Assembly (NCBI GenBank): GCA_026391595.1
Contig: JAPLDY010000070.1
Span: 1 to 49,394, forward strand
Direction of reading: 5' to 3'
Source: Bacteroidia bacterium
GTDB taxonomy: Bacteria > Bacteroidota > Bacteroidia > Bacteroidales > VadinHA17
Length of the DNA stretch: 49,394 nucleotides
Both the position numbers and the translations under genes were made by a program. The notes below the pieces were generated by a model. It saw only the letters and a list, made by a program, of their open reading frames with translations, was not told where the DNA came from and did no database searches. Below, in pieces: positions 32,450 to 48,782 of the stretch (position 1 is its first letter; each line of letters begins with the position of its first letter).

Positions 32450-32469
32450 TATAATAAGTTGTATTATAC
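32449..32469. terminator. Perfect AT-rich hairpin between convergent genes
   Basis: An eight-pair perfect inverted repeat, GTATAATA/TATTATAC with loop AGTTG, spans the end of the GH3 stop codon and the stop codon of the glpR-like gene. It has no T-tract on either side, so if it ends transcription it would do so as a bidirectional or factor-aided signal. Confidence 0.35.
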
Positions 32470-33231
32470 CAGAGTAACCTCAATACCTTTTTCACGGATT
32501 ATCTCAACAAAATTTGCAGGTGCTCCGGAGTCAGTTATGATGTGATGTATTCTGTTGAAATTGCAGATCTTGCCGAATCCGCGTTTTCCGAATTTGGTGG
32601 AGTCTGCCAGAACGATAACCTCCTGGGCGGCATCCAGCATATATTGATTGAGATGAGCCTCTCCGATGTTGCTGGTTGTAAGTCCGGCATCCAGGTCAAT
32701 CCCGTCAACCCCTATGAACAGTTTATTGCATACCATTTCGCTAAGAAGGCTTTCTGCATATGGTCCAATAACGGTTGCTGAGCTTTTTCGCATAGACCCT
32801 CCAAGCTGGATTATTTCGACATTGGGTTTATAACAAAGAGTCAGGGATACCTTCACTGATGGGGTGATCACTGTCAGTGGTTCTGTCATTGTTATCTTCT
32901 GCGCGAATACCAGCACTGTAGTCCCTGATGCAATGATAATCCTGTCATTATTCTTCAGCAGCAGGTTTGCAGCTTCACCAATTCGATTCTTCTCATTGAC
33001 CTGGACTTTCTCCTTCTCGTCAATATGCCTGTCGTTGATCAAAGAGCTGATAGGGCTTGCGCTTCCATGACTCCTGTAAAGCAGTTTCCTGTCTTCAAGT
33101 TCTTTCAAATCCTTTCGGATCGTTACTTCCGAAACACTCAGACGTTCGCTCAGATCCTGTACCCTTACGTAGCCTTCCTTTTCCAGTTCGGCTAATATGA
33201 TCTTATGTCTTTGGGCTATATTTCTCATCAT
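32464..33231 (-). CDS. glpR: DeoR-family regulator, GlpR-like
   Basis: A 255-residue repressor. The N-terminal HTH lies at about residues 20-42 (VQDLSERLSVSEVTIRKDL) followed by the DeoR signature region LEDRKLLYRSHGSA. The C-terminal sensor domain has IASGTTVLVFAQ, the phosphate-binding-type loop ending in the GGSMRKSS stretch, FIGVDGIDLDAGLTT and VLADSTKFGKRG, all typical of DeoR/GlpR members that bind phosphorylated effectors. It is divergent from the glycerol-3-phosphate dehydrogenase gene, so control by glycerol-3-phosphate is a sound inference. DeoR members for other sugar phosphates look alike, so the gene symbol rests on context. Confidence 0.85.
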   Translation of the reverse strand: MMRNIAQRHKIILAELEKEGYVRVQDLSERLSVSEVTIRKDLKELEDRKLLYRSHGSASPISSLINDRHIDEKEKVQVNEKNRIGEAANLLLKNNDRIIIASGTTVLVFAQKITMTEPLTVITPSVKVSLTLCYKPNVEIIQLGGSMRKSSATVIGPYAESLLSEMVCNKLFIGVDGIDLDAGLTTSNIGEAHLNQYMLDAAQEVIVLADSTKFGKRGFGKICNFNRIHHIITDSGAPANFVEIIREKGIEVTLV

Positions 33232-33264
33232 TTCTTTGTCTGGCTATAATTCCGGAATTTATAA

Positions 33265-33272
33265 CAAAGGTA
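33265..33272 (-). promoter_or_regulatory. Candidate -7 box for the glpR-like gene
   Basis: On the - strand TACCTTTG matches TAnnTTTG and lies 33 bases before the regulator start codon. No convincing TTTG element is found about 20 bases further upstream, so this is a tentative match. Confidence 0.3.
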
Positions 33273-33287
33273 TAAAATTAATAATCA

Positions 33288-33306
33288 GTATATAATTTTA
33301 ATATAC
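33288..33306. promoter_or_regulatory. Inverted repeat, possible GlpR-type operator
   Basis: GTATAT and ATATAC are separated by seven bases, giving a 19-base dyad in the spacer between the divergent glpR-like and glpD genes. Its position just upstream of the candidate regulator promoter suits an operator. It does not match the E. coli GlpR operator, and an AT-rich dyad can arise by chance in this region. Confidence 0.25.
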
Positions 33307-33459
33307 AGAAGGTGGGGTTATATGCAGGATAATAACTAAATATAGTTAAAATAAAAGAAAATAAGTTACGAATTATTTTAAATACTTTCAATTATATTTT
33401 GATTTATTAAAAAGAGGATTTATTTTTACCCCACATTTCCTTATCAACTAACCTGTTTT

Positions 33460-35058
33460 ATGAACAATAATATAGCACCATCAAAATTGGATCGCGAATA
33501 TTTTTTAACACTGCTGAGAGACTCTGCGATGCAATGGGATTTCATTGTTATCGGAGGAGGTGCAACTGGTCTGGGTATTGCAGTAGATGCAGCAAGCAGG
33601 GGTTACAAAACAGTACTGCTTGAGCAGTCAGACTTTGCAAAGGCTACTTCCAGCCGCAGCACAAAGCTGGTCCATGGCGGAGTCCGGTACCTTCAGAATG
33701 GAGATGTGGCACTGGTCAGAGAAGCTCTCCGTGAAAGAGGTATTCTAAAGAAAAATGCCCCTCATCTGGTTAAGGATCAGCGATTTATTATTGGCAATTA
33801 TAAATGGTGGGAGAGACCTTTTTATACTATTGGTCTGACAGTATATGACCTGTTATCGGGTAAATTAACTCTTGGACGCTCTCTGCCAATGAGCAAAAAG
33901 AACGTGATTAAAAATATACCTCAGATCGTACAGAAAAACCTTAAAGGGGGAGTAGTTTACCATGACGGACAATTTGATGACTCCAGGCTGGCAGTTAACC
34001 TGATGCAAACCGCTGTTGAAAAAGGAGCCATTGTAGTGAATTACTGCAAAGCAATACGCCTGTTGAAAGATATTGAAGGTAAAGTGGCCGGAGTTGTGGC
34101 TGAAAATGTACTTGAAGGCGGAAGTTTCGATTTGAAAGGAACTTGCATAATAAATGCCACCGGAATCTTTGTAGACAATATAATTAAAATGGATGACCCG
34201 GAGGAAAAACCGCTGGTACGACCAAGCCAGGGGATCCATCTTGTGGTCGATAAATCGTTTCTGGGCGGGGAGGATGCAATTATGGTCCCAAAAACCAGCG
34301 ATGGCCGCGTAATGTTCGGTGTTCCATGGCATAACCGGGTAATCCTGGGCACAACGGATATCCCTGTAAGGGAATTCGTCCTTGAGCCTAAAGCCCTGGA
34401 AGAAGAAGTCGATTTTATTCTCGAGACTGCCGGCCGATATCTTACCAAAAAACCTCAGAGAAAGGATGTCCTTTGTGTTTATGCCGGCTTACGGCCGCTG
34501 GCTGCGCCGAAAAAGAATGCTGATGAAACCAAAACGAAGGAGATATCACGCAGTCATAAGTTATTGGCTTCCCCGTCTGGACTGGTGACAATTACAGGCG
34601 GCAAGTGGACCACCTATCGCCTTATGGCCCAGGATACTGTTAATTTAGCTCTTAAAACAAAAAAACTGCCATTTAAGGCATGTCAGACAAAGAACCTTAA
34701 GATACATGGATACAGAGAAGGTTCTTTCAATGACGACTGGCTGAATATATATGGCAGTGATCAGGACGGGATTCTCAAGTTACAGAAGGAGAATCCGGCA
34801 TACGGAGAAAAGCTGCACAGGGATTTTGATTTTACTGTTGGGGAAGTTGTGTGGGCTGTGAGAAAAGAAATGGCCAGAACTGTCGATGATGTACTTGCAA
34901 GAAGAGTCCGTGCCCTGTACCTCGATACAAGAGCTTCAATAGAGATGGCACCACGGGTTGCGGCAATAATGGCAGAAGAACTTAACAAAGACAGGAACTG
35001 GGAAAAACGACAGATTGAAGAATATACTGAAATGGCGAAAGCCTATGTTATATCATGA
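33460..35058 (+). CDS. glpD: FAD-dependent glycerol-3-phosphate dehydrogenase
   Basis: A 532-residue flavoenzyme that oxidises glycerol-3-phosphate to dihydroxyacetone phosphate at the inner face of the membrane and passes electrons to quinone. The FAD motif is IVIGGGATGLGIAVDAASRG, followed by the diagnostic SSRSTKLVHGGVRYL region. Other conserved parts are YHDGQFDDSRL, GIHLVVDK, GVPWHNRVILGTTD, and the C-terminal GlpD domain with EVVWAVRKEMARTVDDVLARR. Length fits the single-subunit enzyme. It is divergent from the glpR-like regulator and lies in the same direction as the transporter and phosphodiesterase genes, which supports a role in glycerophosphodiester catabolism. Confidence 0.95.
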   Translation: MNNNIAPSKLDREYFLTLLRDSAMQWDFIVIGGGATGLGIAVDAASRGYKTVLLEQSDFAKATSSRSTKLVHGGVRYLQNGDVALVREALRERGILKKNAPHLVKDQRFIIGNYKWWERPFYTIGLTVYDLLSGKLTLGRSLPMSKKNVIKNIPQIVQKNLKGGVVYHDGQFDDSRLAVNLMQTAVEKGAIVVNYCKAIRLLKDIEGKVAGVVAENVLEGGSFDLKGTCIINATGIFVDNIIKMDDPEEKPLVRPSQGIHLVVDKSFLGGEDAIMVPKTSDGRVMFGVPWHNRVILGTTDIPVREFVLEPKALEEEVDFILETAGRYLTKKPQRKDVLCVYAGLRPLAAPKKNADETKTKEISRSHKLLASPSGLVTITGGKWTTYRLMAQDTVNLALKTKKLPFKACQTKNLKIHGYREGSFNDDWLNIYGSDQDGILKLQKENPAYGEKLHRDFDFTVGEVVWAVRKEMARTVDDVLARRVRALYLDTRASIEMAPRVAAIMAEELNKDRNWEKRQIEEYTEMAKAYVIS

Positions 35059-35093
35059 TTTCTTTGGGCTCCACAATTTAAAAAGATGAGGTG

Positions 35094-36845
35094 ATGGAAT
35101 CTGTTTTGACTTCAATTACTATCAGATCAGCACAATCGAAAGCATTTTTCTCTTTTGCACTGGCCGGATCCATGTTGATCCCATCAGCTGTCAGAGCACA
35201 GAAACCGCAAATCAAAAGACCTAATATAATCATCATTCTATCTGATGATATGGGTTATTCAGATATAGGTTGTTTTGGTTCTGAAATAAAAACACCAAAC
35301 ATTGACCGGTTGGCAAACAATGGAGTCCGGTTCACACACTTCTATAATAATGCCCGGTCGAGTCCAAGCCGGGCATCCCTGCTTACCGGACTGTATGCGC
35401 ACCAGGCTGAAATGGGACATCTGGCAACGGCAGCTCCGCATGAGGAAGAAGGTTACAGGGATGAATTAAGCAAGAATGCTGTTACCCTTGCAGAAGTGCT
35501 CAGGCAAAACGGGTACTCCACATACATGACCGGCAAGTGGCATTTGACAAGGGAGATGACTGCAACGGGAGACAGAAGCAACTGGCCTCTTCAGCGCGGT
35601 TTCGACCGCTACTTCGGGACTCTCAACGGATCAGGAAGTTTTTATGATCCGGGAACACTTATCAGCAATAATACTTTAATTGCACCGGGGAAGGATTTTT
35701 ATTATACAGACGCCATTAGTGATTCTACCGTAAAATTTATCATGCAGCATCCCGAGGATAAGCCATTTTTCTTTTATGTTGCATATACTGCTGCTCACTG
35801 GCCCCTTCATGCACCTGAAAAGGAAATTGAAAAATACAAAGGAGTATATGACATTGGATGGGATTCATTAAGGGTACTGCGGTTCAATAAGCTTAAGAAA
35901 CTTGGTATAATAGGTGAAGAGTGTGTATTGACTGACAGAGGGGTGGATGTCCCGGCATGGAAAGATGAACCGATGAAGGAATGGCAGGCCCGCAGGATGG
36001 AAGTCTATGCAGCAATGATAGATATTATGGATCAGGGAATTGGAAGAATTATTTCAGCCCTCGAGAAGAAAGGCGAACTTGAGAACACAATTATTTTCTT
36101 CATGCAGGATAACGGAGGCTGTGCTGAACCCCAGGGAACAAAGCAACCGGAAGTTCCATTGACTGAGGAGCAGAAGATCCTTAAACCAATTCCTGATGAT
36201 GCTATTTTACCTGTAAGAAGGTCTGAATATACCCGCGACGGACATTACATCAGGAGTGGGCGCGGAGTGATGGCAGGTGCTGCTGACACCTGGGTAGCGT
36301 ATGGTGAAGAGTGGGCAAATGTAAGCAATACACCTTTCAGACTATACAAACAATGGGTACATGAAGGTGGCATCGCAACTCCGTTAGTAGTTTACTGGCC
36401 TGCCGGAATAAATAACAAAGGAACTCTTAATAAAGAGGTTTCTCACCTTATTGATATATTGCCAACCTGTCTGGAAATTACAGGAGCTTCATATCCTGCC
36501 CATTTCAATGGTAAAGAGATCATCCCATATGAAGGAAAGAGTCTTGTCCCGGCATTGAAGAATAAGAAAATCAAACACGATTTCCTGATATGGGAACATT
36601 GCGCCAACAGGGCAATCCGGATTGGTAAATGGAAACTGGTAGCCAAAGTACAGAAGCAGATGGAATTTACATCGGCTGATGAAAATTCATGGGAACTGTA
36701 TAATCTTGAGAAAGATCCTTCGGAAACAAATAACCTGGCAGATAAATATCCCGGCAAAGTGAAGAAGATGGCACAGAGATGGGAGAAGGAAGCAATAAGG
36801 ATAAAAATGAAACCATGGCCCTGGAATAAAGAAACAAATTTGTAA
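35094..36845 (+). CDS. Secreted sulfatase (formylglycine-dependent, serine-type)
   Basis: A 583-residue exported sulfatase of the alkaline-phosphatase superfamily (S1 type). A signal peptide ends near VRAQ. The metal-binding ILSDDMGYSD (D51, D52) is intact. The active-site signature reads SSPSRASLLTG with the first serine S89, i.e. the Ser-type version that needs an anaerobic sulfatase-maturing radical-SAM enzyme; none is encoded in the window. MTGKWHL and FMQDNGGC provide further conserved site residues. It is unexpected between glpD and glpT. It may desulfate a sulfated glycerol-containing glycan or lipid; a phosphonate or phosphate diesterase of the same superfamily is a less likely alternative. 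The ATG at 35094 is preferred over the adjacent GTG at 35091. Confidence 0.9.
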   Translation: MESVLTSITIRSAQSKAFFSFALAGSMLIPSAVRAQKPQIKRPNIIIILSDDMGYSDIGCFGSEIKTPNIDRLANNGVRFTHFYNNARSSPSRASLLTGLYAHQAEMGHLATAAPHEEEGYRDELSKNAVTLAEVLRQNGYSTYMTGKWHLTREMTATGDRSNWPLQRGFDRYFGTLNGSGSFYDPGTLISNNTLIAPGKDFYYTDAISDSTVKFIMQHPEDKPFFFYVAYTAAHWPLHAPEKEIEKYKGVYDIGWDSLRVLRFNKLKKLGIIGEECVLTDRGVDVPAWKDEPMKEWQARRMEVYAAMIDIMDQGIGRIISALEKKGELENTIIFFMQDNGGCAEPQGTKQPEVPLTEEQKILKPIPDDAILPVRRSEYTRDGHYIRSGRGVMAGAADTWVAYGEEWANVSNTPFRLYKQWVHEGGIATPLVVYWPAGINNKGTLNKEVSHLIDILPTCLEITGASYPAHFNGKEIIPYEGKSLVPALKNKKIKHDFLIWEHCANRAIRIGKWKLVAKVQKQMEFTSADENSWELYNLEKDPSETNNLADKYPGKVKKMAQRWEKEAIRIKMKPWPWNKETNL

Positions 36846-36920
36846 CCGGATACAGGACGAATACAATAAGCTTTTATTTATAATTGCATCCTGAAAAACT
36901 GAAAGATTAAGAAATACCAG

Positions 36921-38378
36921 ATGATCAATTTCCTTAAACCTCCGCCTCCAAAGGATCTTCTTCCACAAGAGAAGATTGATTCCGAATATAAGAAGATGAG
37001 GCTCAAGGTATTTTTAGGCGCATTTCTGGGTTATGCGGGCTATTATCTTGTCAGGAAAAATCTTGCACTGGCAATACCCGGAATGATCCAGCCGGTAGCA
37101 AGCGGAGGATTGGGCTATACCAAACTGGAACTGGGTACAGCTCTCTCAGCTGTTTCCATTGCATACGCATTCAGTAAATTTTTAATGGGGGCAGTTTCAG
37201 ACAGATCCGATGTCAGAAAATTTCTGGTAATCGGATTAATCCTCTCAGCACTGCTGATGATGTCAGTTGGACTATTCTCATTCGCTACAAGTTCAGTTGC
37301 AATTATTTTCGTGTTCATGCTGATTATAGGATGGCTTTCCGGAATGGGATGGCCTCCCTGCGGCAGAGTTATGGTACACTGGTTCTCTCATAACGAGAGA
37401 AGCTTTAAAATGTCAATTTGGAATACATCGCATACGTTTGGAAGCGGATTGATGGGTAATCTTGCCGCCGTTGGAACAGTTCTCATTGGCGGCTTCTTTT
37501 TGGTTGATATCGGAGGCGGTGTCATTGTGGACCAGAGCTGGAGGGCTGTTTTTGTGTTCCCAAGCGCAATAGCTTTGATTATAGCTGTTTTCTGCTGGTG
37601 GGCTTTGAGAGATACACCCCAATCCTGTGGATTGCCGCCTATAGATCAGTATAGAAATGATGTCACTGCATCAAAGGAGATGAGTTCCGACGCAAAAATC
37701 CCCCTCTCCGAATTATTTGTAAAATACATATTCAAGAATAAGATTCTCTGGCTGATTGCACTGGCAAACATATTTGTATATCTGGTCCGGTATGGTATCG
37801 GCGACTGGTCCCCGACATATTGTCAGGAGTCAGGTCTGTTAACCAGCGCACAGAGTAAAATGGCCTTTTCACTGCATAATTATGCCGGCATACCGGGAAC
37901 AATTGTATGCGGATTGATTTCTTCAAAACTTTTTAAGGGAAGGTGCGCTCCGGCCAATGTGATATATATGTTGCTTGTCGTAGTCTTTATTGTTTTGTAT
38001 TGGAAAGCTGCGCCTGTAGCATCTTTTTTAGCTGAGACATTTTCCAGAGATCTGGTTTCTACCCAGGTGGCTGTTGTCTACTCTGCTTTAATAGGAATAG
38101 GCTTCTTTATTTATGGTCCTGTTGCACTTATTGGTGTACAGGCTGTCAACCTGGTTCCCAAAAATGCAGCCGGAACAGCTGCCGGATTTGTCGGGTTATT
38201 CGGATATCTGGTCGGCGATGCTCTCTTATCAAAAATTGTGATCGGAGCAGTTGCCGATAACGTTCATTTAGGCTGGGGAGCAGCTTTCTGGATTTTCATA
38301 ATCGGCAGTATTCTGGCGGCAGTTTTTTCCGCAACAACCTGGAAAAGAGAAAAAGCTGCCTTTGCTCTAAATAAATAA
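36921..38378 (+). CDS. glpT: Glycerol-3-phosphate transporter (MFS, OPA family)
   Basis: A 485-residue inner-membrane protein with about twelve membrane spans, of the organophosphate:phosphate antiporter group. The N-terminal FLGYAGYYLVRKN carries the arginine-bearing YYLxRKN motif that binds phosphate in GlpT/UhpT. The inner loop AVSDRSDVRKF, the phrase GMGWPPCGRVMVHWFS and LVRYGIGDWSPTYCQE in the second half are typical of GlpT. It exchanges cytoplasmic phosphate for external glycerol-3-phosphate. A related OPA substrate cannot be excluded, but the neighbouring glpD and GDPD genes make glycerol-3-phosphate the most likely one. The HAD gene follows six bases later. Confidence 0.93.
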   Translation: MINFLKPPPPKDLLPQEKIDSEYKKMRLKVFLGAFLGYAGYYLVRKNLALAIPGMIQPVASGGLGYTKLELGTALSAVSIAYAFSKFLMGAVSDRSDVRKFLVIGLILSALLMMSVGLFSFATSSVAIIFVFMLIIGWLSGMGWPPCGRVMVHWFSHNERSFKMSIWNTSHTFGSGLMGNLAAVGTVLIGGFFLVDIGGGVIVDQSWRAVFVFPSAIALIIAVFCWWALRDTPQSCGLPPIDQYRNDVTASKEMSSDAKIPLSELFVKYIFKNKILWLIALANIFVYLVRYGIGDWSPTYCQESGLLTSAQSKMAFSLHNYAGIPGTIVCGLISSKLFKGRCAPANVIYMLLVVVFIVLYWKAAPVASFLAETFSRDLVSTQVAVVYSALIGIGFFIYGPVALIGVQAVNLVPKNAAGTAAGFVGLFGYLVGDALLSKIVIGAVADNVHLGWGAAFWIFIIGSILAAVFSATTWKREKAAFALNK

Positions 38379-38383
38379 GGAAT

Positions 38384-39313
38384 ATGAAGAGAAAACTATT
38401 AATTTATTTATTATCAGCTTTTTGCCTATTCTCAGGACTGAATGCCCAGGTATATCGGCCTGTTAAAGGCTGGTCAAGGGAGATTAATGATAAGCTTGAA
38501 AGTTTTTTGAACTCGACAATCTCAATTAAGGAAAGGAAAGTCGCAGTATTTGATGGCGACGGAACAACTTTTGGGCAGGTCCCATATTACCTGGCTGATG
38601 AGGCTCTTTATCAATATGGTGATGATGTATTGAAAAAAAGAAATGATAAGTCGGCAAAAGAGAAGCTCGCAATTCTCGAAAGAATGGTACAGAATGGAGA
38701 TAATGTAAGTAAACCATATGTTGAAGACAGGGTCCATTTCCTGACAGGACTGACTACTGAAGAAATTGAAGCTATTGGCTATAGCTGTTATCTGAATTCA
38801 TATAAGGGTAAATTCTTTCCTGAGATGAAAGAGCTTATAGCCAACCTTAAGCAGTATGGTTTCGAAGTATGGATACTGACAGCTTCACCGGAGATACTTT
38901 ATCAGAAGTTCTTTGCCGATGAACTGGGTCTGTCAAATATAAATATAGTTGGAGCCAAGTGTGTCATAAAGGATGGAAGGACAACAGATGAAATAATCCC
39001 GCCAATACCACAGGATGATGGCAAAGCCCGGGCAATAGAAACATTTATCAAGGCACGCCCTCTGATTGTCGGAGGCAACAGCCGCGGCGACATGGACATG
39101 CTGAATGAATCATTCGGGTTAAAAATTGTCGTGAACCCGGATGAAGTAACCGTCAGGGGCAAGGAAGATGGTCCGATGAATGGATTCACAGTTAAATCGT
39201 ACTGGGAAAAAGAGGGTGCATTGATCGTCAAATGCAACGATGTTGCTGATACTGCGGTAAAATTCCATACAGCAGACTGGAAGATAAGGACCAACAAGGC
39301 GAATCCAAAATGA
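38384..39313 (+). CDS. Exported HAD-superfamily phosphatase
   Basis: A 309-residue phosphatase with a signal peptide (cleavage near LNAQ). Motif I is VFDGDGT (nucleophile D57, D59), motif II is WILTASPE, and motif IV is VGGNSRGDMDML. The layout resembles PSP-type HAD enzymes such as periplasmic phosphorylcholine phosphatase and other small-molecule phosphomonoesterases. With the GDPD lipoprotein next door, it could remove phosphate from a product of diester cleavage or from glycerol-3-phosphate itself. The substrate is inference. It starts six bases after glpT and 51 bases before the GDPD start, in one apparent transcription unit. Confidence 0.85.
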   Translation: MKRKLLIYLLSAFCLFSGLNAQVYRPVKGWSREINDKLESFLNSTISIKERKVAVFDGDGTTFGQVPYYLADEALYQYGDDVLKKRNDKSAKEKLAILERMVQNGDNVSKPYVEDRVHFLTGLTTEEIEAIGYSCYLNSYKGKFFPEMKELIANLKQYGFEVWILTASPEILYQKFFADELGLSNINIVGAKCVIKDGRTTDEIIPPIPQDDGKARAIETFIKARPLIVGGNSRGDMDMLNESFGLKIVVNPDEVTVRGKEDGPMNGFTVKSYWEKEGALIVKCNDVADTAVKFHTADWKIRTNKANPK

Positions 39314-39364
39314 TTATTGATAATCTGGTAAAACAAGTTGAAAAAGATATTAGAAAAGTTAATC

Positions 39365-40522
39365 ATGAATAAAATAGTATTGGCAATATCAATTCTTCTG
39401 GTTGCTGCCTGCTCCTGTCAGCAGCATAAAAGTGAAACTAAAATGAAAGAAGTTCAGAAATATATGCCCGATAATGCAGTTATTGCTCATCGTGGGACAA
39501 TATACTGGGCTCCCGAACTCACCGAACCTGCATTTCGCTGGGCCAGGAACGCAGGTGCTGATTATGTTGAACTCGATGTGCAAAGATCAAAGGACGGCGT
39601 ACTGATTATAATGCATGACCGGACTTTCAACAGGACAACCGATGTGGCTCAGAAATTTCCGGGAAGGGAGAAGGAAACAATCGACTTATTTACCTGTGAG
39701 GAAATAATGAAGCTGGATGCCGGAAGTACATTCAATACCAAGTTCCCTGACCGTGCGCGCAGCAGCTATAAAAACCTTGATGTCCTCGTTTTTGAAGATG
39801 TCTTTCAGATCGCTGCAGGCAACAGGATTAAGAGAAATCCCGATGGAAGCCGTGCTTTTCATCTGGATGCTGCTGGCAAATATGTCTTTGAATATGAACC
39901 CGATCCGGCAGATAATGGCCACAGACCTGGTGTATACATTGAATACAAAGACCCTGACAGCTACCCCGGACTTGAAGAACAGGCTTACGCCGAGCTGGCC
40001 CGGTTCGGATGGAACCCGCTGGAGGGAGAGGTAATTAAGGATAATGTCCCATTTTATATAGATGGGAAGGTCAACGTTGGGAATACTAAAGGTAAAATCC
40101 TTAATCAGACCTTTTCGCGTCCTAGCATGCTGATCCTTCAGAAAGTATTCAAAGAGCAAGTTCCTACAAGCTTCCTGATAGGCAATACAAAAACCAACGA
40201 CTTTGCTAAGGTAGAGGTAATGGATGAAATAGTAAATTTTGCCCTATCCTCCGGAGCCCAGTATATCGGGACAAACCTGGGAGATGAAAATGACGGACTG
40301 TCACCGGAATTTTCTAAGAAAATTCATGCTGTAGGCTTAAAAGCAAACGCCTATTCTTTCAATACTATTGAGCAAATGGAAAAATATCTCCCCCTGCTTG
40401 AAGGCATGATAACCAACCGTGCGGATCTGACAATTTATTTTTATTGCGAACGCGGAGTAAGAGAAAATAAAACAACACAAACACCTGAAGAAGTACTGAT
40501 TCAGCTTGGATATAATATTTGA
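39365..40522 (+). CDS. glpQ: Lipoprotein glycerophosphodiester phosphodiesterase (GDPD)
   Basis: A 385-residue GDPD-family enzyme that cleaves glycerophosphodiesters to glycerol-3-phosphate and an alcohol. The N-terminus is a lipoprotein signal (VAAC, C16), which is why the ATG at 39365 is chosen over a TTG at 39338. The catalytic and metal-binding set is complete: H42 in AHRG, E69 and D71 in VELDV, and H84 in MHDRTF. FEYEPDP and YIEYKDPD strands complete the TIM barrel, and DLFTCEEIMKLDAGSTF is family-typical. As an envelope enzyme it would feed glycerol-3-phosphate to the GlpT-like transporter and then GlpD. The symbol rests on family and context; substrate range is unknown. Confidence 0.9.
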   Translation: MNKIVLAISILLVAACSCQQHKSETKMKEVQKYMPDNAVIAHRGTIYWAPELTEPAFRWARNAGADYVELDVQRSKDGVLIIMHDRTFNRTTDVAQKFPGREKETIDLFTCEEIMKLDAGSTFNTKFPDRARSSYKNLDVLVFEDVFQIAAGNRIKRNPDGSRAFHLDAAGKYVFEYEPDPADNGHRPGVYIEYKDPDSYPGLEEQAYAELARFGWNPLEGEVIKDNVPFYIDGKVNVGNTKGKILNQTFSRPSMLILQKVFKEQVPTSFLIGNTKTNDFAKVEVMDEIVNFALSSGAQYIGTNLGDENDGLSPEFSKKIHAVGLKANAYSFNTIEQMEKYLPLLEGMITNRADLTIYFYCERGVRENKTTQTPEEVLIQLGYNI

Positions 40523-40535
40523 TTGGGAAAGAATA

Positions 40536-42506
40536 GTGAGGAAAATTAAGAAAGCGGACTTTGTTTTAAAACTGGCAACGATCTTTGTGATCATTGGCGT
40601 TGGGATTAGTTTTAACAGTTGTAATAACGATAATAAAGTAGATGATAAGCTGCTTAAGATTACCGGCGTCTCAATCCCTTCAAGCCTCGATATTGTTGCA
40701 GATGGTGAAATTACCCTTACCGGTAAAGGATTTGAAGTTGGCGATCTGATAGTATTTACTCTGAAAGGTGACGCAGGAACAGAATATACAAGTACTGTCA
40801 CCTCTGTAACTGCTTCGACTGTAACCTTCACATTGCCGGATGGCATCTCTTCAGGAATATATACAATCAGCGTGGAAAGAGGGGATGAAAGCCTTGCTCT
40901 TGGAACAGTTACGATAAATGTGCTTGCCAATCTTGACATCCCCGATATCAGCGGGATGACTGTAAAGGGAGTAGTATATTGCGATGGGTATGGCCTTCCC
41001 GGAGTAGTTGTTTCTGACGGTTTTGAAGTTTCTACCACGGATGCCAGCGGGATCTATTACCTGCCCTCACAAAAGAAGAACGGATATGTATTTATATCAG
41101 TTCCCGGCAACTATGAGGTTTCCAGCAGCAACAATATTCCCCAGTTCTTTAAAAGGCTTACAGGTGGAAGCAGTGTGGAACAGAAGGACTTTTCATTATA
41201 CCATGCTGATAACAGCAAGCATGTCGTCCTGACAATGGCAGACTGGCACCTTGCAAACCGGAATGATGACCTGTCACAATTCAGCAGCGGTTTTCTGGCT
41301 GATGTCAACTCACTGATCAGCAGCTATAAGGCAGCCGGAACAAAAGTATACGGGCTTACCCTTGGTGATATGACCTGGGACCTCTATTGGTATGAGAACA
41401 ATTACGCTCTTCCTCAATACCTGGTGCAAATGAATATGATCAACTGTACAATGTTTAATATAATGGGTAATCATGATAATGATCCTTACTGTGCAGGAGA
41501 CTTGCCGGCTGAGGCCAAATTCAGGACTTATATAGGCCCGACTTATTATTCGTTCAATCTTGGCAGCGTACATTATATTGTTCTTGATGATATCCAATAT
41601 ATAAATACCAGCGGCGCTCAGGGAGTAATAGGGGACCGTGACTATTACGATATTATAACTTCCGACCAGATGATTTGGCTTTCAAAAGACCTTGCGACTC
41701 TTACCGACAAGAGTAAGCCGGTGATTATTGCAATACATGCTGCTCTTTATAAAAATCCATCACTCGATGCTAATGGCAATCAGTTGAATACAATCGATCT
41801 TTTGAACGGAAGTTCTTTAATATCAACATTACAGGGTTTCACCAATGTCCATATATTGAGCGGACATACGCATATCAATTTTACTGCTGAGCAAAGCATC
41901 TCATTGATGGAGCATAATACAGCCGCTGTGTGTGCTACCTGGTGGTGGACAGGTAAGAGCGGATATGCCGGAAACCAAATCTGCAAGGATGGGAGCCCCG
42001 GAGGATATGGTGTGTGGGAGATTAACGGGACAGACGTAAGGTGGTATTATAAAAGTATAGGCAAGGATAAGAATTACCAGTTCAGGTCCTATGATCGGAA
42101 CCAGGTTCTGATTACAGCTGCAAATTTTGCTCCTAACTCCACCGATGCAGCTCTGGCCCCGTATGCCGGTGTCTATGCATCTCCAGGCACGTCCAACGAG
42201 GTTTTATTAAATGTATGGGGATATGATCCCGGATGGAAAATTGAAGTTAAGGAAGGCAGTACCAATCTTGCTGTCGAGAGGATTTATGCTATGGATCCGC
42301 TGCATATTATCTCCTATGAAGCTAAGAGGCTGAATGCCGGCGCAATTCCGACCAGCTCATTTGTCACCTGCAATACGGCTCATCTGTTCAGGGTTACAGC
42401 AGCGAATCCTGCTTCAACGCTGGATATTAAAGTAACTGACCATTTCGGCAATGTTTACAGCGAGACAATGTCGCGACCTAAAATATTTACATATTTAATG
42501 CAATAA
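40536..42506 (+). CDS. Lipoprotein calcineurin-like metallophosphoesterase with N-terminal IPT-like and regulatory beta domains
   Basis: A 656-residue envelope protein. The GTG at 40536 gives a lipoprotein signal (FNSC, C29) and starts 13 bases after the GDPD gene; the TTG at 40506 would overlap that gene. An IPT/TIG-like beta domain (about 40-135) and a carboxypeptidase-regulatory-like domain (about 145-215) precede the phosphoesterase domain. That domain has DWH (D236, H238), GDMTWD, GNHDND (N312, H313), a HAALY histidine and GHTH (H444, H446), a full two-metal site. A C-terminal beta-sandwich follows (about 500-656). Family members cleave phosphomonoesters or diesters, including lipid and nucleotide types. 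Its setting between GDPD and SusC suggests surface processing of a phosphate-containing polymer or head group. Confidence 0.88.
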   Translation: MRKIKKADFVLKLATIFVIIGVGISFNSCNNDNKVDDKLLKITGVSIPSSLDIVADGEITLTGKGFEVGDLIVFTLKGDAGTEYTSTVTSVTASTVTFTLPDGISSGIYTISVERGDESLALGTVTINVLANLDIPDISGMTVKGVVYCDGYGLPGVVVSDGFEVSTTDASGIYYLPSQKKNGYVFISVPGNYEVSSSNNIPQFFKRLTGGSSVEQKDFSLYHADNSKHVVLTMADWHLANRNDDLSQFSSGFLADVNSLISSYKAAGTKVYGLTLGDMTWDLYWYENNYALPQYLVQMNMINCTMFNIMGNHDNDPYCAGDLPAEAKFRTYIGPTYYSFNLGSVHYIVLDDIQYINTSGAQGVIGDRDYYDIITSDQMIWLSKDLATLTDKSKPVIIAIHAALYKNPSLDANGNQLNTIDLLNGSSLISTLQGFTNVHILSGHTHINFTAEQSISLMEHNTAAVCATWWWTGKSGYAGNQICKDGSPGGYGVWEINGTDVRWYYKSIGKDKNYQFRSYDRNQVLITAANFAPNSTDAALAPYAGVYASPGTSNEVLLNVWGYDPGWKIEVKEGSTNLAVERIYAMDPLHIISYEAKRLNAGAIPTSSFVTCNTAHLFRVTAANPASTLDIKVTDHFGNVYSETMSRPKIFTYLMQ

Positions 42507-42536
42507 CCAATTTATAAATAACTAAATACCTTAATT

Positions 42537-45500
42537 ATGAAATTTAAACCAGATCTGAAGATTATTCTTGCCGCGTTGATGCTGCTGGTATTTACTTTAC
42601 CGGCAATATCACAGGGCAGGGAGATTAAAGGAACAGTGTTTGAGACTGACGGATTGACACCTGTAGTGGGTGCTACCGTCATGGTCAAGGGCACTTCTAC
42701 CGGCGCCTATAGTGATGCTAAAGGTGCCTATGCCATAAGGGTTACGGGCGATAACCCTGTACTGGTATTTCAATTCCTTGGTTATGTCAGCCAGGAGATA
42801 ACAGTAGGAGGCCAGTCCGTTATTGATGTTGTAATGAAGCTGGAAGCTGTTCAGCTTGAAGGAGTCATTGTGACTGCCCTCGGCCTTACCCGTGAGGAGA
42901 AATCCCTGGGGTATGCAGTTACCAAAGTAAATAATGAACTTATTACACAGGTTGAAACAAGAAACTGGCTTAACGGAATGTCAGGGAAAGTCGCAGGTCT
43001 TAATACCAGCGGAGCCAATTCAGGTCCTATCGGGTCAATGCGTGTTACTCTCCGTGGTGATCAGTCACTAAACTATGGCAGTAATGAGGCTCTTTTTATT
43101 GTTGACGGTGTTCCTGTAAGATCAGGTACTACTGCAACATCATCAAGCAGTAGTTATACGAACTCAGGATCGGATTTCCCTGTTGACTTTGGTAACGGAG
43201 CGAGCGATATTAATCCTGAAGATATTGAGAATGTCACTGTATTAAAGGGCCCGGCAGCTACTGCGCTTTATGGTTCACGTGCCGCTAACGGAGCTATCGT
43301 AATTACCACAAAATCCGGACGTAAAGACAGAGGTATCGGTGTTGTTGTCAACTCTTCAGTTTCTGTTGAAACAGCCGGCTATTGGCCTGATTTCCAGACT
43401 GAATACGGTTCAGGCAGCGACATGGGAATTAACGAATACAACTTCTGGACCCTCGATCCGAGCCTGGTTGGAACTTCCGATTATCCTGCAAGAAACCTTT
43501 CCCGTTATGCCTGGGGTGAAAAATTTGATCAGGAAAAACTGCGTTATCAATATGCAGGCAAAGATTGGGAAGGTGGTACAGTATCAGCAACTCCTTTCGT
43601 TTATCAGGATGACTGGTTTACCGGGATCTTCAAAAGCGGTGTTACTTATGACAATAACATTTCCATAAGCGGTAGCGACGGAGCAGGTAAGAATGTCCGT
43701 TTTTCAATGACCGATACCAGGAATGAATGGATACTTCCAAACACCGGATTCAAGAAGCAATCGTATTCAATCTCTTTTGAATCCCCTGTTAACAAGTTTA
43801 TCAAGTTCAACACAAAAGTCAATTATTATCGCACTGACAGTGAGAATATGCCAATGGCAGGTTATCACCAGACAACTGTAATGTACGACCTGATGTGGGG
43901 CTATAATTCAAACTCGATGAATGACTGGAAGAGTGAGTACTTTAACGGGAGATTTAATGCGATAAACAGGAACGCGACAATTTCAGAAGGTGGACACAGC
44001 CTCGTATTTGCCGGTACCGGATCATATAATCCATACAGAGTTCTCTACGAAGAGCTGAATTCAACAAATAAGGACAGGGTATTTGGTTCTGCAGGCTTTA
44101 CGATTGATTTATTGAAAGGCCTTACTCTTGATATTAAATCAGGAATGGATATGGGAGTTGAGTTTCGTACACAGAGGAAACCCAAAATGACTTTTGGATG
44201 GGAGAATGGATTTTACAGGGAACAATCATTTACCAACTATGAATTCAATACTGATTTCCTTCTGAAATATAAAAAGGACTTTTTCGGTAATAAACTTACT
44301 ACCCAGACTGCATTCGGAGGGAATAACATGACAACTCAGTATTTGAGTAATTCTGTTCAGCTTAATGAACTGGATATTGAAGGTGTTTATCATACATCAA
44401 ATGTTCCGACAGGGATTAATCCAAATCCATCAAATTACAGAAGTTCAAAGATCATCAATAGTTTATATGGCTTTGTTTCATTGGGATGGGATAATAAATT
44501 CTATCTCGATCTGACAGGCCGAAATGACTGGTCCAGTACTCTTTCCCCCGGTAACTGGTCGTACTTCTACCCTTCGGTTGCTGCAAGTATTCTGTTAGAC
44601 CAGGTATTTAATTTCAAGACATATGTTCCTGCTATTTCATTTGCAAAACTGCGTCTTTCATGGGCAAACGTAGGTAATGATACAAGTCCGTATTCACTCG
44701 ATCAGTATTATTCTGCTGCTGCAATCAGTGGCGGATATACTTTGCCATCAACCATTCCTGACCCGATGATCAAACCTGAGAATGTAGCCAGCTGGGAAGT
44801 CGGTCTCGACGCGAAATTCTTTAAAAATCGTCTGGGCTTCGATCTGGCTCTGTATACCTCAGCGACCACAAACCAGATTGTATCAATAGATATAGACCCG
44901 ATAATAGGGGCATCTTCCATGAAGATAAATGCAGGCGAGATCAATAATAAAGGTATCGAGCTGGCATTATATGCAACTCCGGTAAGTATTAATGGTTTTA
45001 CCTGGGATTTGAGTCTTAACTGGTCAAAAAACATCAATACGCTTGTCAGCTTGCAGGGTGACTGGGATCCTACCAAACCACTGGAGACGGACATGGGAAC
45101 AACTATCGGAGGAAGACTTCATGATTACTCTTATGTAGGAGGTGAGATGCACCAGTTATATGGCTTCGCACTTAAAAAAACACCTGAAGGATCATATTAT
45201 CTTGACGACGACGGGAACAAAGTTGATTGTTCCGGACAGGTTATTATTGATGCAACCACCGGATTGCCATCAGTAGTTTCTACAGCAGATAATTTTCTTG
45301 GCAAAGTAAATCCTGACTGGAGGGGCGGTTTCAGCTCTGCGCTCAGATATAAGAGTTTTGCACTGAATATGTCGTTCTCATACCAGTATGGTGGTAACAG
45401 ATTTTCGGTCACTGACGGAATCCTGGCATATCAGGGGAAACTGAAAAACTCACTTGAAGGTCGTTATGATGGACTGGTTGCAGAAGGAGTTAACCTGATT

Positions 45501-45869
45501 ACAACCAATACCGATGGTTCTACAGAGTGTCAGGTAAATAACGCCATTACAAGCAGTATTTACACCTATTATCAGGCTATTACTCTTGACCGTTATAATG
45601 GTGAATCTCATACTTATAGTACCTCTTTCCTGAAATTCAAAGAGGCCAGGCTTGAATATAACCTTCCTGCCCGGATCTGCGCTAAAACCAAAGTACTTCA
45701 GGGAGCTGCTATTGCAATATATGCGACCAATATTTTCAGCTGGGACAAATGGCCTCAGTTTGATCCGGAAGCAGGTATGCTGACAGGTACAAACGTCTTT
45801 GAAGGTATTGAGGCTGGTGCATTTCCAATGACGCGTACACAAGGCCTTAACTTAAGATTATCATTTTAA
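42537..45869 (+). CDS. susC: SusC/RagA-type TonB-dependent outer-membrane transporter
   Basis: A 1110-residue outer-membrane importer. A signal peptide (cleavage near ISQ) is followed by a carboxypeptidase-regulatory-like domain (about 28-105, GREIKGTVFETDG), the TonB box region (about 108-118, EGVIVTALGL), the plug with LNGMSGKVAGLNT and EALFIVDGVPV, and a beta-barrel that ends in an aromatic strand (LNLRLSF). There is no extra N-terminal STN domain, so it is not a FecA-like transducer. SusC proteins import glycan or peptide fragments larger than porins pass, together with a SusD lid. It begins 30 bases after the metallophosphoesterase gene, so its cargo is probably a phosphate-containing compound. 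The symbol names the family, not a proven starch role. Confidence 0.97.
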   Translation: MKFKPDLKIILAALMLLVFTLPAISQGREIKGTVFETDGLTPVVGATVMVKGTSTGAYSDAKGAYAIRVTGDNPVLVFQFLGYVSQEITVGGQSVIDVVMKLEAVQLEGVIVTALGLTREEKSLGYAVTKVNNELITQVETRNWLNGMSGKVAGLNTSGANSGPIGSMRVTLRGDQSLNYGSNEALFIVDGVPVRSGTTATSSSSSYTNSGSDFPVDFGNGASDINPEDIENVTVLKGPAATALYGSRAANGAIVITTKSGRKDRGIGVVVNSSVSVETAGYWPDFQTEYGSGSDMGINEYNFWTLDPSLVGTSDYPARNLSRYAWGEKFDQEKLRYQYAGKDWEGGTVSATPFVYQDDWFTGIFKSGVTYDNNISISGSDGAGKNVRFSMTDTRNEWILPNTGFKKQSYSISFESPVNKFIKFNTKVNYYRTDSENMPMAGYHQTTVMYDLMWGYNSNSMNDWKSEYFNGRFNAINRNATISEGGHSLVFAGTGSYNPYRVLYEELNSTNKDRVFGSAGFTIDLLKGLTLDIKSGMDMGVEFRTQRKPKMTFGWENGFYREQSFTNYEFNTDFLLKYKKDFFGNKLTTQTAFGGNNMTTQYLSNSVQLNELDIEGVYHTSNVPTGINPNPSNYRSSKIINSLYGFVSLGWDNKFYLDLTGRNDWSSTLSPGNWSYFYPSVAASILLDQVFNFKTYVPAISFAKLRLSWANVGNDTSPYSLDQYYSAAAISGGYTLPSTIPDPMIKPENVASWEVGLDAKFFKNRLGFDLALYTSATTNQIVSIDIDPIIGASSMKINAGEINNKGIELALYATPVSINGFTWDLSLNWSKNINTLVSLQGDWDPTKPLETDMGTTIGGRLHDYSYVGGEMHQLYGFALKKTPEGSYYLDDDGNKVDCSGQVIIDATTGLPSVVSTADNFLGKVNPDWRGGFSSALRYKSFALNMSFSYQYGGNRFSVTDGILAYQGKLKNSLEGRYDGLVAEGVNLITTNTDGSTECQVNNAITSSIYTYYQAITLDRYNGESHTYSTSFLKFKEARLEYNLPARICAKTKVLQGAAIAIYATNIFSWDKWPQFDPEAGMLTGTNVFEGIEAGAFPMTRTQGLNLRLSF

Positions 45870-45887
45870 TTATAAAACTGATAAGAA

Positions 45888-47465
45888 ATGAAAAAAATAG
45901 CATTTATAATAATATGTGGTCTTGTACTTGGATTATCCAACTCCTGTACCAAAAATTTTGAGGAGATAAATACCAATCCAAACAAAACACTTGTTGGCAT
46001 GATTCAGGCATCCGGGCTCTTTGAGCCTATCCTGTATAATTCTGCCAACCAGTGGTTGAATCGTACCTGGTACTACAATAATGAACTCATTCAGTTTACT
46101 GCTTTTACAGGTGGTGTTACCAGGAGAGAGCATCAGTATTTTCTGGAAGAATCAAGGGACTGGGCTGGTTTTTGGAATCACTATGCAACTTATGGGAACA
46201 ATATTAACCATATGTATCAGCTTGCTCAGGAACAGGATGATAAATCTCTGGAAGCTATTGCACTGACATTTAAAGTATTGTTCTTTTCAAACATGACAGA
46301 CATGTTTGGGAGTGTTCCTTATAAAGAAGCCTTTACGGGAAGAGAAGTCGGAGGAACCCTTACTCCGAAATTCAACACTCAGAAAGAGGTATATGAATTC
46401 ATGTTTGCCGACCTTGAAAAAGCAAATGATATCTATGCGACTGATCCTGTATTCCTTAAAGTAACCATGGATGGTATGTATAAAGGCAACATGGCAGCCT
46501 GGAGGAAATTCAACAATTCTTTGTATTTAAGGCTGTTATGCAGGGTAAGCGGTCGAAGTGAAATGAATGTCGGAACCAAAATGACAGAGATACTGAGCGA
46601 CCCGGTCAAATACCCGGTCTTTACGTCAAACCTGGACAATGCTGCTGTCACTTTTACAGGCAGCGATCCTTACCTGAGTAATTTTGGAACAACAACTGAA
46701 AGCGAATTCACATCCAGCGGCAGGAAACTTACAAAACAGCTTATCGGCATGACTGTTCAGACAGATCTGAGCGGCAATCAGATATATGTTGATCCTCGCT
46801 TGCCTATTATTGGCAAGAAGAATAACATTGTTGCTGTCAATCCTCTTAATATCTGGATAGGAACAAAATCGGGATGTACTGATCAGGAAAGAAGCACGGT
46901 TGACATAGGAACCTCATGGCTGAACTATAAGGTCTTCTGCAGAAAAAATGCTCCTGCAACATATATGGACTATGCAGAGGTTCAGTTCATTCTTGCTGAA
47001 GCTGCACTGAAAGGCTGGATATCAGGAGGAGCATCTGCTGCCAAAAATTATTATGAGGCAGGCGTAAGGGCTTCAATGGGAAAATGGTCTGCAGAAGGAG
47101 CCCTTCTGACTCCGGCAGTAACCATCACTACGGGAGATGTCAGTACATATCTTGCATCACCTCTTGGCTCGTGGGACCTGGCCACAAACAAGGAAGCATT
47201 TCTGGGTAACCAGAAGTATCTTGCCCTTTTCTGGGTAGGGATGGAAGCATACCACGAATATCGCAGGACCGGATATCCTGTTCTGACAATAGGAGAGGGA
47301 ACTATTTACAATGACAATATTCTCCCTACACGTTTCGGATATCCCAATACGACAATGTCAACAAACGCTGCCAATGCCAGTACTGCATTGCAGGTTATGG
47401 GAGGTGATAATGATATGAAGACACCAGTATGGTGGAGCAGGCAGGCAATTACTGGAGGTAAATAA
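45888..47465 (+). CDS. susD: SusD/RagB-like surface lipoprotein (SusD-like_2 type)
   Basis: A 525-residue surface lipoprotein with lipobox LSNSC (C20), the substrate-binding lid of the preceding SusC. The early NTNPNKT motif and FEPILYNSANQW, the helical TPR-like region (ALTFKVLFFSNMTDMFGSVPY) and YMDYAEVQFILAEAAL near residue 360 are typical of the SusD-like_2 group. It lies 18 bases after SusC and 11 bases before the BACON gene. Its ligand cannot be read from sequence; the genes upstream point to a glycerol- and phosphate-containing molecule or glycan. The family name is used for the symbol. Confidence 0.95.
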   Translation: MKKIAFIIICGLVLGLSNSCTKNFEEINTNPNKTLVGMIQASGLFEPILYNSANQWLNRTWYYNNELIQFTAFTGGVTRREHQYFLEESRDWAGFWNHYATYGNNINHMYQLAQEQDDKSLEAIALTFKVLFFSNMTDMFGSVPYKEAFTGREVGGTLTPKFNTQKEVYEFMFADLEKANDIYATDPVFLKVTMDGMYKGNMAAWRKFNNSLYLRLLCRVSGRSEMNVGTKMTEILSDPVKYPVFTSNLDNAAVTFTGSDPYLSNFGTTTESEFTSSGRKLTKQLIGMTVQTDLSGNQIYVDPRLPIIGKKNNIVAVNPLNIWIGTKSGCTDQERSTVDIGTSWLNYKVFCRKNAPATYMDYAEVQFILAEAALKGWISGGASAAKNYYEAGVRASMGKWSAEGALLTPAVTITTGDVSTYLASPLGSWDLATNKEAFLGNQKYLALFWVGMEAYHEYRRTGYPVLTIGEGTIYNDNILPTRFGYPNTTMSTNAANASTALQVMGGDNDMKTPVWWSRQAITGGK

Positions 47466-47476
47466 GGAGCTAAAAA

Positions 47477-48721
47477 ATGAAAAACAAAATAGATATGAAA
47501 ACAAATAATTTCTTCAGATTGAAGAGCGCAGGAACACTGCTTCTGGCACTGTTCTTTTCTGCATGGTTATTCCCCTCTTGTGAAGAAGAACAGGTCAGCG
47601 ATCCATACTTCAGTATCGAAGGCAATCCAACCGGGCTGACTGTACCCAAGGCCGGGATCACACACAGCTTTACGGTCCGTTCAAATCGCCCATGGCAGCT
47701 TATTGCCCAGAGTGAAGGAGATTGGGTAAAAATTTTCCCCAGTGAAGGCGATGATGATGGCATCTTCAAGATAATAGTCAGCGAGAACGCTTCATTTGAT
47801 GCCCGTACTATGGACTATGCTATAATCGTCGGTGGTGAAGAACAACCTGTTCTGTTCCGCGTCGATCAGCAACCTAATGTTCCGTATATAACAGTACCGG
47901 CGACAGTGACAATTCCTTCTGCAGGAGGTGATGTGACAATAAATGTTACATCAAATGTGAGCTGGACATATTCGATTAGCGGTGCTAGCTGGCTGACGCA
48001 GAAATCGGTAACAGCAACCCAGATCGTACTGACTTCAGCACAGAATACAAGCATTGACCCGAGGTCAGCTACCATGACCCTAACAACTACAGGTTATGCA
48101 GTCTCTGTAAATGTAACACTTACACAATCACCAGGGACGGTGGTCCTGGAAGAGAATTTCAACTGGCTGAATTATGGTAATGTTGTCTTCTATACGACCA
48201 CAGGTGAAACAATTATTTCTTCCTGGACACAGGCAGAGAAAGATAAAGGTTGGACCTCCAGCATCAACACGACTTCAGGAAGCGGCAATACTCCTCTGTG
48301 TTATGCAAGGGTAGGATTTGTAAAACTCGGTAAAACGGGCTATGGAGGCGACCTTATTTCTCCTAAACTGACCAAGCTTACAGGAACTCAAAATCTTACC
48401 GTGACGTTCAAAGCAATTCCTTACATGACTGCGGCAGGTACGAAGGATGACAATATTCTTAAAGTCAGTGTTGTAGGGCCGGGAACAGTAAGTCAAAGTC
48501 AGTTTACAATCGGAAACTGGCCGGTTTATCCCACTTCAGGAGCAGATACATATTGTATTGCTTTATGGAACGATCCTGCAGCAACTCGTACATTTACAGT
48601 CACCGGAGCTACATCTGATACTCAGATAAAGTTCCTTGGTTATGACTATTATCTTGTAGGTGTAGGAGCTGGTAAGAACAGGATTTTCCTCGACGACATC
48701 AAAGTGGAAATTGTACCATAA
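47477..48721 (+). CDS. BACON-domain surface lipoprotein
   Basis: A 414-residue lipoprotein that follows SusD, the usual place of a surface glycan-binding protein. A likely lipidation cysteine is C35 in FPSC. Two BACON-type beta-sandwich domains follow: about 50-133 (SNRPWQLIAQSEGDWVKIFP) and about 136-222 (SNVSWTYSISGASWL), each with the tryptophan and DARTM/DPRSAT spacing typical of the family. The C-terminal half (about 225-414) is an unassigned beta-rich domain of the choice-of-anchor/jelly-roll kind. An AAGGAG motif seven bases before the ATG at 47477 decides the start; this is one of the few clear Shine-Dalgarno sites here. Its role is probably to catch the ligand at the cell surface. 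Confidence 0.85.
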   Translation: MKNKIDMKTNNFFRLKSAGTLLLALFFSAWLFPSCEEEQVSDPYFSIEGNPTGLTVPKAGITHSFTVRSNRPWQLIAQSEGDWVKIFPSEGDDDGIFKIIVSENASFDARTMDYAIIVGGEEQPVLFRVDQQPNVPYITVPATVTIPSAGGDVTINVTSNVSWTYSISGASWLTQKSVTATQIVLTSAQNTSIDPRSATMTLTTTGYAVSVNVTLTQSPGTVVLEENFNWLNYGNVVFYTTTGETIISSWTQAEKDKGWTSSINTTSGSGNTPLCYARVGFVKLGKTGYGGDLISPKLTKLTGTQNLTVTFKAIPYMTAAGTKDDNILKVSVVGPGTVSQSQFTIGNWPVYPTSGADTYCIALWNDPAATRTFTVTGATSDTQIKFLGYDYYLVGVGAGKNRIFLDDIKVEIVP

Positions 48722-48745
48722 ACATTTGCCACAGATTAAGGAAAA

Positions 48746-48782
48746 GGGCAGCAGATTTTTCTGCTGCTCTTTTTATTTTTTT
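48746..48782 (+). terminator. Rho-independent terminator after the SusCD operon
   Basis: GGGCAGCAG pairs with CTGCTGCTC (one G-U pair) around loop ATTTTT, with an A-run before and a long T-run after the stem. It lies 24 bases after the BACON gene stop and closes the operon. It is the clearest terminator in the window. Confidence 0.85.

Follow-up and report, generated by a model that had tools for sequence, protein, structure and literature searches.

The window analysed here, the entire 49,394-nucleotide contig JAPLDY010000070.1 from the genome of a Bacteroidia bacterium of the order Bacteroidales (GCA_026391595.1; 3.64 Mb, 95.5% complete), carries ten genes at positions 32464-48721, one divergent regulator on the minus strand and nine co-directional genes on the plus strand. 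Together these are likely to form a nutrient-uptake operon for glycerophosphodiester-containing molecules, resembling a polysaccharide utilisation locus (PUL) with phosphodiesterases replacing glycosidases. Every gene named in an earlier note on this DNA was recovered by family profile searches where that note had placed it, but its list had omitted a 584-aa sulfatase-family gene (35091-36845) between glpD and glpT. The features are:

32464..33231, minus strand: DeoR/GlpR-family repressor-like regulator, divergent from the run (PF00455, 159 bits; PF08220, 60 bits)
33361..33400, plus strand: possible regulator site or promoter element, a diverged footprint copy (tentative)
33460..35058, plus strand: GlpD, FAD-dependent glycerol-3-phosphate dehydrogenase (PF01266, PF16901)
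35091..36845, plus strand: sulfatase-family exported hydrolase (PF00884, 211 bits)
36921..38378, plus strand: GlpT-type organophosphate:phosphate antiporter (TIGR00712, 505 bits)
38384..39313, plus strand: exported HAD-IB phosphatase, probably periplasmic (PF12710)
39338..40522, plus strand: GlpQ-like glycerophosphodiester phosphodiesterase (GDPD) lipoprotein, translation likely beginning at ATG 39365, probably periplasmic (PF03009, 88 bits)
40506..42506, plus strand: calcineurin-like metallophosphoesterase (MPE) lipoprotein, probably surface, with MetallophosN/C domains and translation likely beginning at GTG 40536
42537..45869, plus strand: SusC, TonB-linked outer-membrane transporter (TIGR04056, 555 bits, cut-off 368)
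45888..47465, plus strand: SusD-like lipoprotein, probably surface (PF12771, 270 bits)
47477..48721, plus strand: BACON-domain lipoprotein, its C-terminal part unassigned, probable surface binding protein (PF13004, two stretches; EEEQ after the lipobox Cys)
48741..48774, plus strand: Rho-independent-terminator-like hairpin with a 15-pair stem ahead of a T-run (terminator scan)

The likely starts of GDPD and MPE were judged by comparison with sister proteins. With open reading frame (ORF) starts as listed, the gaps between the nine plus-strand genes were -17 to 75 bp and the strongest plus-strand terminator-like site lay directly after the BACON gene, as the earlier note had described; joint transcription of the run is predicted. 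Weaker terminator-like sites inside genes mean little, because the scan counted 20 sites in all between 30000 and 49394 and 15.2 +/- 3.6 in shuffles. SusCD systems are a principal means of large-nutrient uptake in Bacteroidota, and most of those with an assigned substrate act on glycans. The SusC and SusD genes of the window were adjacent in tandem with an 18-bp gap (TIGR04056, PF12771), as in a canonical carbohydrate-active enzyme (CAZyme) PUL, but without linked glycoside hydrolases or lyases, as 0/10 locus proteins matched any CAZyme Pfam family at E<=0.001. Adjoining the SusCD pair were instead MPE, GDPD and HAD, a phosphoesterase/SusCD co-localisation as in PusCD systems.

The gene order appears to be more than chance, because it recurs in relatives. 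These came from an alignment-based scan (a single-protein scan of genome contigs yielded none). It detected 269 GDPD relatives in named genomes, of which the 80 top-ranking ones were retained for annotation, using a single query for each gene. Locus flanks of ~10 kb were often cut by contig ends and an overlap filter on ORFs hid the SusD of locus L092, so that all counts over the best 80 are lower bounds. At least 61 of these loci had GlpT, 46 GlpD or GlpA and 63 any of these, with HAD in at least 22, MPE in 17, SusC in 15, Porin_O_P in 12, SusD in 10 (11 with the hidden L092 ORF), and sulfatase and BACON in 7 each. The HAD-GDPD-MPE-SusC-SusD-BACON order was kept in full in six of the best 80 (L081, L083, L088, L091, L098 and L100), while the contigs of L085 and L087 stop inside SusC. 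The identity of these loci to the window was 78-82% for GlpR and GlpT, 70-73% for HAD, 62-65% for GDPD, 74-78% for SusC and 78-81% for SusD. Frames were broken in MPE (L081, L083, L098), SusC (L083, L100), BACON (L098) and GlpT (L086), which may reflect decay or error in metagenome-assembled genomes (MAGs). At E<=1e-20, GDPD relatives (some of them partial matches) were present in 10 genomes besides its own among 393 of the order. None besides its own was found among 395 genomes sampled from the phylum, a soft negative since the alignment scan shows Flavobacteriaceae relatives, and a same-genus sample of 35 genomes gave no GDPD match better than 2.7e-12.

Other relatives paired SusCD with the glp/GDPD/MPE set in different arrangements. 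MPE-SusC-SusD was divergent from GlpD-GlpT-GDPD in L132 and L135 (SusC 57-59% identical to the window), and a Tannerella sp. MAG (L092) carried GlpR beside GlpD-GlpT-GDPD-MPE-SusC-SusD-BACON without HAD (SusC 53%). In Proteiniphilum L094, GlpR beside GlpD-GlpT-HAD-GDPD-MPE was kept and the SusCD slot was filled by a different pair, a distant SusC (23%) and a PF07980-type SusD, with a protein whose BACON match was under cut-off; the contig of L093 stops inside SusC. In L074 (genome G258, another family of the order), HAD and GlpR stood beside GlpD-GlpT-MPE-SusC-SusD-second MPE-BACON (GlpT 77%, SusC 71%, SusD 75%), with the GDPD not linked and its only family match elsewhere in the genome.

Several loci weigh against a SusCD-equipped glycerophosphodiester operon as a single fixed unit. 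The closest relative that shares this chromosomal position (L126:3-10877, compared with window 28261-49394) has flanking genes 87%, 88% and 94% identical to those of the window, and between them lay GlpD (78%), GDPD (67%) and a DUF6807 protein, so that only GlpD and GDPD of the locus are kept; no GlpR, sulfatase, GlpT, HAD, MPE, SusC, SusD or BACON was found there, nor any SusD match at E<=1e-20 in that genome. The remaining genes were therefore gained in the window lineage or lost in the L126 lineage. L080 and L086 had glp-HAD-GDPD but lacked MPE/SusCD, the rest of each genome holding no close SusD either, and L089 carried an unrelated SusCD (31%), which argues against one fixed unit. The L126 locus could be a reduced or an ancestral form. 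The possibility that the glp genes are unlinked from SusCD in relatives, which the earlier note had regarded as damaging, was thus borne out in L080, L086 and L126, but linkage was retained in several others. Comparative genomics supports a recurrent unit, though not a fixed one.

The GDPD, the one family match in this genome, keeps nine of ten Bacillus subtilis GlpQ active-site residues for Ca2+ and substrate (GlpQ H43, R44, E70, D72, H85, E152, Q188, F190, Y259 and F279; window H51, R52, E78, D80, H93, E202, Q257, F259 and Y339, with F279 replaced by I358). The predicted MPE structure had the glycerophosphodiesterase GpdQ as its best fold match, tied with Lmo2642, and phmmer against the PDB gave no match for MPE at 0.001. 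GlpT matched TIGR00712 glpT as its best family at 505 bits, below the cut-off of 632.55, and GlpD matched NCBIfam PRK12266 at 290 bits, below the cut-off of 360; GlpD was the sole match at E<=1e-60 in this genome, whose GlpK gene lies on another contig. The HAD protein (66-76% identical to 15 relatives) had fold matches to 4ovy, 4gxt and the phosphorylcholine phosphatase 4as2, from a weak model (predicted local distance difference test, pLDDT, 67). The best solved relatives of the sulfatase were 7all (1.8e-125) and the Pseudomonas arylsulfatase 1hdh. C/S-x-P-x-R is the type I sulfatase maturation motif, and the active-site motif was SSPSR in the window and CSPSR in sister loci. The window sulfatase is thus S-type, with C-type lipoprotein versions or none in sister loci.

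To predict localisation, aspartate and glutamate (D/E) residues were counted in the nine positions following the lipobox Cys; the proteins came from L080-L101, L074, L132 and L135, with score floors of 400 bits for GDPD and MPE, 500 for SusD and 250 for BACON; lower-scoring pieces were dropped and only proteins with a Cys found were used. Mean D/E was 0.74 for GDPD (19/21), 3.27 for MPE (11/13), 2.33 for SusD (9/9) and 3.83 for BACON (6/7). By one-sided Mann-Whitney test, GDPD values were below those of MPE (P 7.5e-6), SusD (P 1.5e-4) and BACON (P 1.0e-4), all indicative only as the sequences are related, and the window tails, counted by eye (GDPD 1, MPE 3, SusD 2, BACON 4), fitted this pattern. 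The surface export signal of Capnocytophaga lipoproteins is described as K-(D/E)2 or Q-A-(D/E)2 (PMC5080379, available text). Because the acidic residues after the lipobox Cys differ, MPE, SusD and BACON are probably on the surface and GDPD in the periplasm; of the two enzymes that the earlier note called lipid-anchored, MPE is therefore the one probably exposed at the surface. HAD and the window sulfatase had, by eye, signal peptides without a lipobox.

The idea of a SusCD-equipped glycerophosphodiester system, advanced in the earlier note, is supported because the conserved order, the re-pairing of SusCD with the glp/GDPD/MPE set, the catalytic residues and the predicted localisation agree. 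Gene content, the shared order among relatives, the retained active sites and the lipoprotein signals are read from the sequence; localisation, joint transcription and substrate we infer. In the proposed mechanism, surface BACON and SusD would bind the substrate, surface MPE would cut it into shorter pieces, and SusC/SusD would import these with TonB energy. Once in the periplasm, the pieces would lose substituents to the HAD phosphatase and, in loci that have one, to the sulfatase, and the GlpQ-like GDPD would free sn-glycerol-3-phosphate (G3P), which GlpT would move through the inner membrane and GlpD would oxidise to dihydroxyacetone phosphate (DHAP), with the operon under the divergent DeoR/GlpR-type regulator. 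If this is true, phosphodiester polymers can serve Bacteroidota as a carbon source, and the operon would offer a possible path by which Gram-positive wall polymers are recycled.

As substrate, poly(G3P) wall teichoic acid of Gram-positive necromass, whole or as oligomers, is slightly favoured, as a reasonable possibility short of probable, because a NamZ gene stands beside glpR or glpD in ten sister loci. Phospholipid-derived glycerophosphodiesters come next as a somewhat weaker possibility, phospholipid head groups being a close rival to wall teichoic acid, and a glycerol-phosphate-decorated glycan is an unlikely third. A NamZ-type muramidase gene directly followed glpR on the same strand, with gaps of -4 to 714 bp, in eight loci (L081, L083, L085, L086, L091, L098, L100 and L101). 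In L080 and L089 the search gave no glpR ORF, and there NamZ adjoined glpD divergently. An amidase gene came next after NamZ in L080, L083, L086, L089, L098 and L100. No NamZ/amidase neighbour was found in L126, L090, L092 or the Proteiniphilum loci. Such neighbours tilt the substrate towards cell-wall material, though they could be synteny of one clade. The window has at the NamZ position a lipoprotein GH3 gene (30632-32449), beyond the regulator and convergent with it; as a NagZ this GH3 was ruled out, having no KH-x-PG motif. Three NamZ_N genes of the window genome lie on other contigs. That the operon is a teichoic-acid utilisation locus, in which a Gram-negative SusCD system strips, imports and burns poly(G3P) wall teichoic acid of Gram-positive necromass alongside peptidoglycan-degrading enzymes, is rather doubtful in this full form. 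If true, the wall teichoic acid made by B. subtilis 168 would be used and its lipoteichoic acid, of opposite stereochemistry, would not; the substrate question is directly testable with purified teichoic acids. B. subtilis GlpQ/PhoD turnover of wall teichoic acid similarly combines one exo GlpQ-type enzyme with a second phosphodiesterase and is stereospecific for G3P, according to the available text (PMC7086022). Two side observations concern these neighbours: the six-locus follower of NamZ is an N-acetylmuramoyl-L-alanine amidase gene, and in L086:1164-5895, the only locus where domains were tested, the NamZ exo-muramidase is fused to a GHL10 domain.

The explanation that survives best beside a polymer-degrading operon, and which we consider a possibility, is phospholipid head-group scavenging, with SusCD importing lysolipids or deacylated phospholipids (glycerophosphocholine, -ethanolamine, -glycerol, -inositol), MPE working as a diesterase of phospholipase C or GpdQ type, and HAD dephosphorylating phosphocholine or phosphoethanolamine. 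However, the structure model of HAD is of low confidence (pLDDT 67), none of the ten genes is for choline or ethanolamine catabolism, the NamZ/amidase neighbours of sister loci point to the cell wall, and such small molecules should cross porins. Some Bacteroidales glp-GDPD loci indeed have Porin_O_P in place of SusCD: L033, L035 and L042 share with the window the GlpT-GDPD core and the GDPD family (37-43% identity), but a porin follows GDPD where the window has MPE-SusC-SusD-BACON. L033 and L035 also carry GlpR and GlpD or GlpABC, in the order GlpR beside GlpD or GlpABC-GlpT-GDPD, then Porin_O_P. Porin and SusCD as mutually exclusive slots were tried and rejected (both in 0/80, expected 2.25, P 0.067 among related loci; not significant). 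The Porin_O_P count, from one query, is a lower bound, and porin-like ORFs in L043 and L044 matched no Pfam family.

The operon might alternatively serve phosphorus scavenging of the PusCD type, with phosphate under inorganic phosphate (Pi) starvation as the goal and glycerol as by-product, which we regard as unlikely. The family pf13653 we take to be a second GDPD-type family. In Flavobacterium johnsoniae, PusCD loci with phosphodiesterases are Pi-starvation-induced, and PUSI and PUSII, like the window, combine SusCD with exported phosphodiesterases or phosphatases (PhoA1 in PUSII) and no CAZymes; PUSI has a PF00149 enzyme, PhoA1 carries pf13653, and diester substrates were inferred by the authors (PMC8115612, available text). 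All six Flavobacterium PusCD clusters adjoin phosphatases and diesterases, with inner-membrane organophosphate transporters across the set (PMC8115612), and the HAD phosphatase of the window would free Pi. PUSI and PUSII, however, are induced solely by Pi depletion, and the available text never mentions glycerol, GlpT or G3P (PMC8115612), whereas genes for G3P catabolism are built into the locus of the window, together with a DeoR/GlpR-type regulator, HAD, a BACON protein and a sulfatase. The glpD and glpT genes in the run and the divergent regulator point to carbon/G3P control, and no phosphate-sensing gene lies among the ten, no Pho box search having been made. The extension of SusCD to phosphodiesters claimed in the earlier note is thus supported here but is not new in kind; because PusCD loci are published (PMC8115612, available text), the locus is a variant of a known SusCD-phosphodiester type, and what is distinct here is the built-in G3P catabolic set with its regulator. 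Among the papers listed by searches of open-licence literature, none described SusCD acting on teichoic acid or lying with glp genes; the loose-term query among these searches is a weak negative.

The proteobacterial glp regulon comprises GlpR, GlpD, GlpT and GlpQ and leads from diester through G3P to DHAP. The window would share this route and keeps the GlpQ active-site residues, but adds SusCD and surface lipoproteins in one co-directional run, and the scores of its GlpT, GlpD and GlpR do not reach the equivalog cut-offs of NCBIfam.

An ordinary PUL for a sulfated or glycerol-phosphate-decorated polysaccharide that lies downstream of a simple glp operon and shares no substrate with it is improbable: the presence of a sulfatase whose nearest solved relatives are 7all and Pseudomonas arylsulfatase, MPE-SusC-SusD without glp genes in L171-L173 and GlpD-GDPD without the SusCD part in L126 would fit it, but 0/10 genes are glycoside hydrolases or lyases, the sulfatase is optional (7/80 loci), and SusCD/MPE-glp linkage recurs in several arrangements with different SusCD pairs.

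DeoR-family domains were clear in the regulator (78-82% identical in 9 sister loci) but the GlpR equivalog score was not reached, with NF008154 at 124.7 bits of 331 and NF041397 at 181.3 of 300; its best NCBIfam was AgaR, at 226 bits versus a cut-off of 260. An AgaR-type operator was rejected in the window, where the consensus had 4 mismatches and 62% of shuffles were equally good; some sister loci fitted. The footprint copy at 33361 was the second or third best match in the 49 kb to a position weight matrix from 9 sister sites and scored 11.5-17.6 bits (by motif length) versus 37-61 for the sister sites themselves, so that 33361..33400 is tentatively a candidate regulator site or promoter element.

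Among more distant loci, MPE-SusC-SusD (PF07980 type) in L171-L173 is possibly a separate phosphodiester SusCD family, with downstream lipoprotein-like genes bearing BACON domains in L171, weak ones in L173 and none in L172. An MPE homologue in L169:8391-12789 has a phosphodiester glycosidase (NAGPA) on one side and an alkaline phosphatase on the other, and SusCD is absent there. Bacteroidota-like GDPD genes were present on records titled Bifidobacterium breve (L106) and Neisseriaceae bacterium PsAf (L115), through a mislabelled or contaminating contig or gene transfer. L055:2951-9085 carried GlpR beside GlpD, a short GDPD, a PF13685 sn-glycerol-1-phosphate dehydrogenase-like gene, a GlpT-like transporter and HAD in succession, possibly a glycerol-1-phosphate arm.

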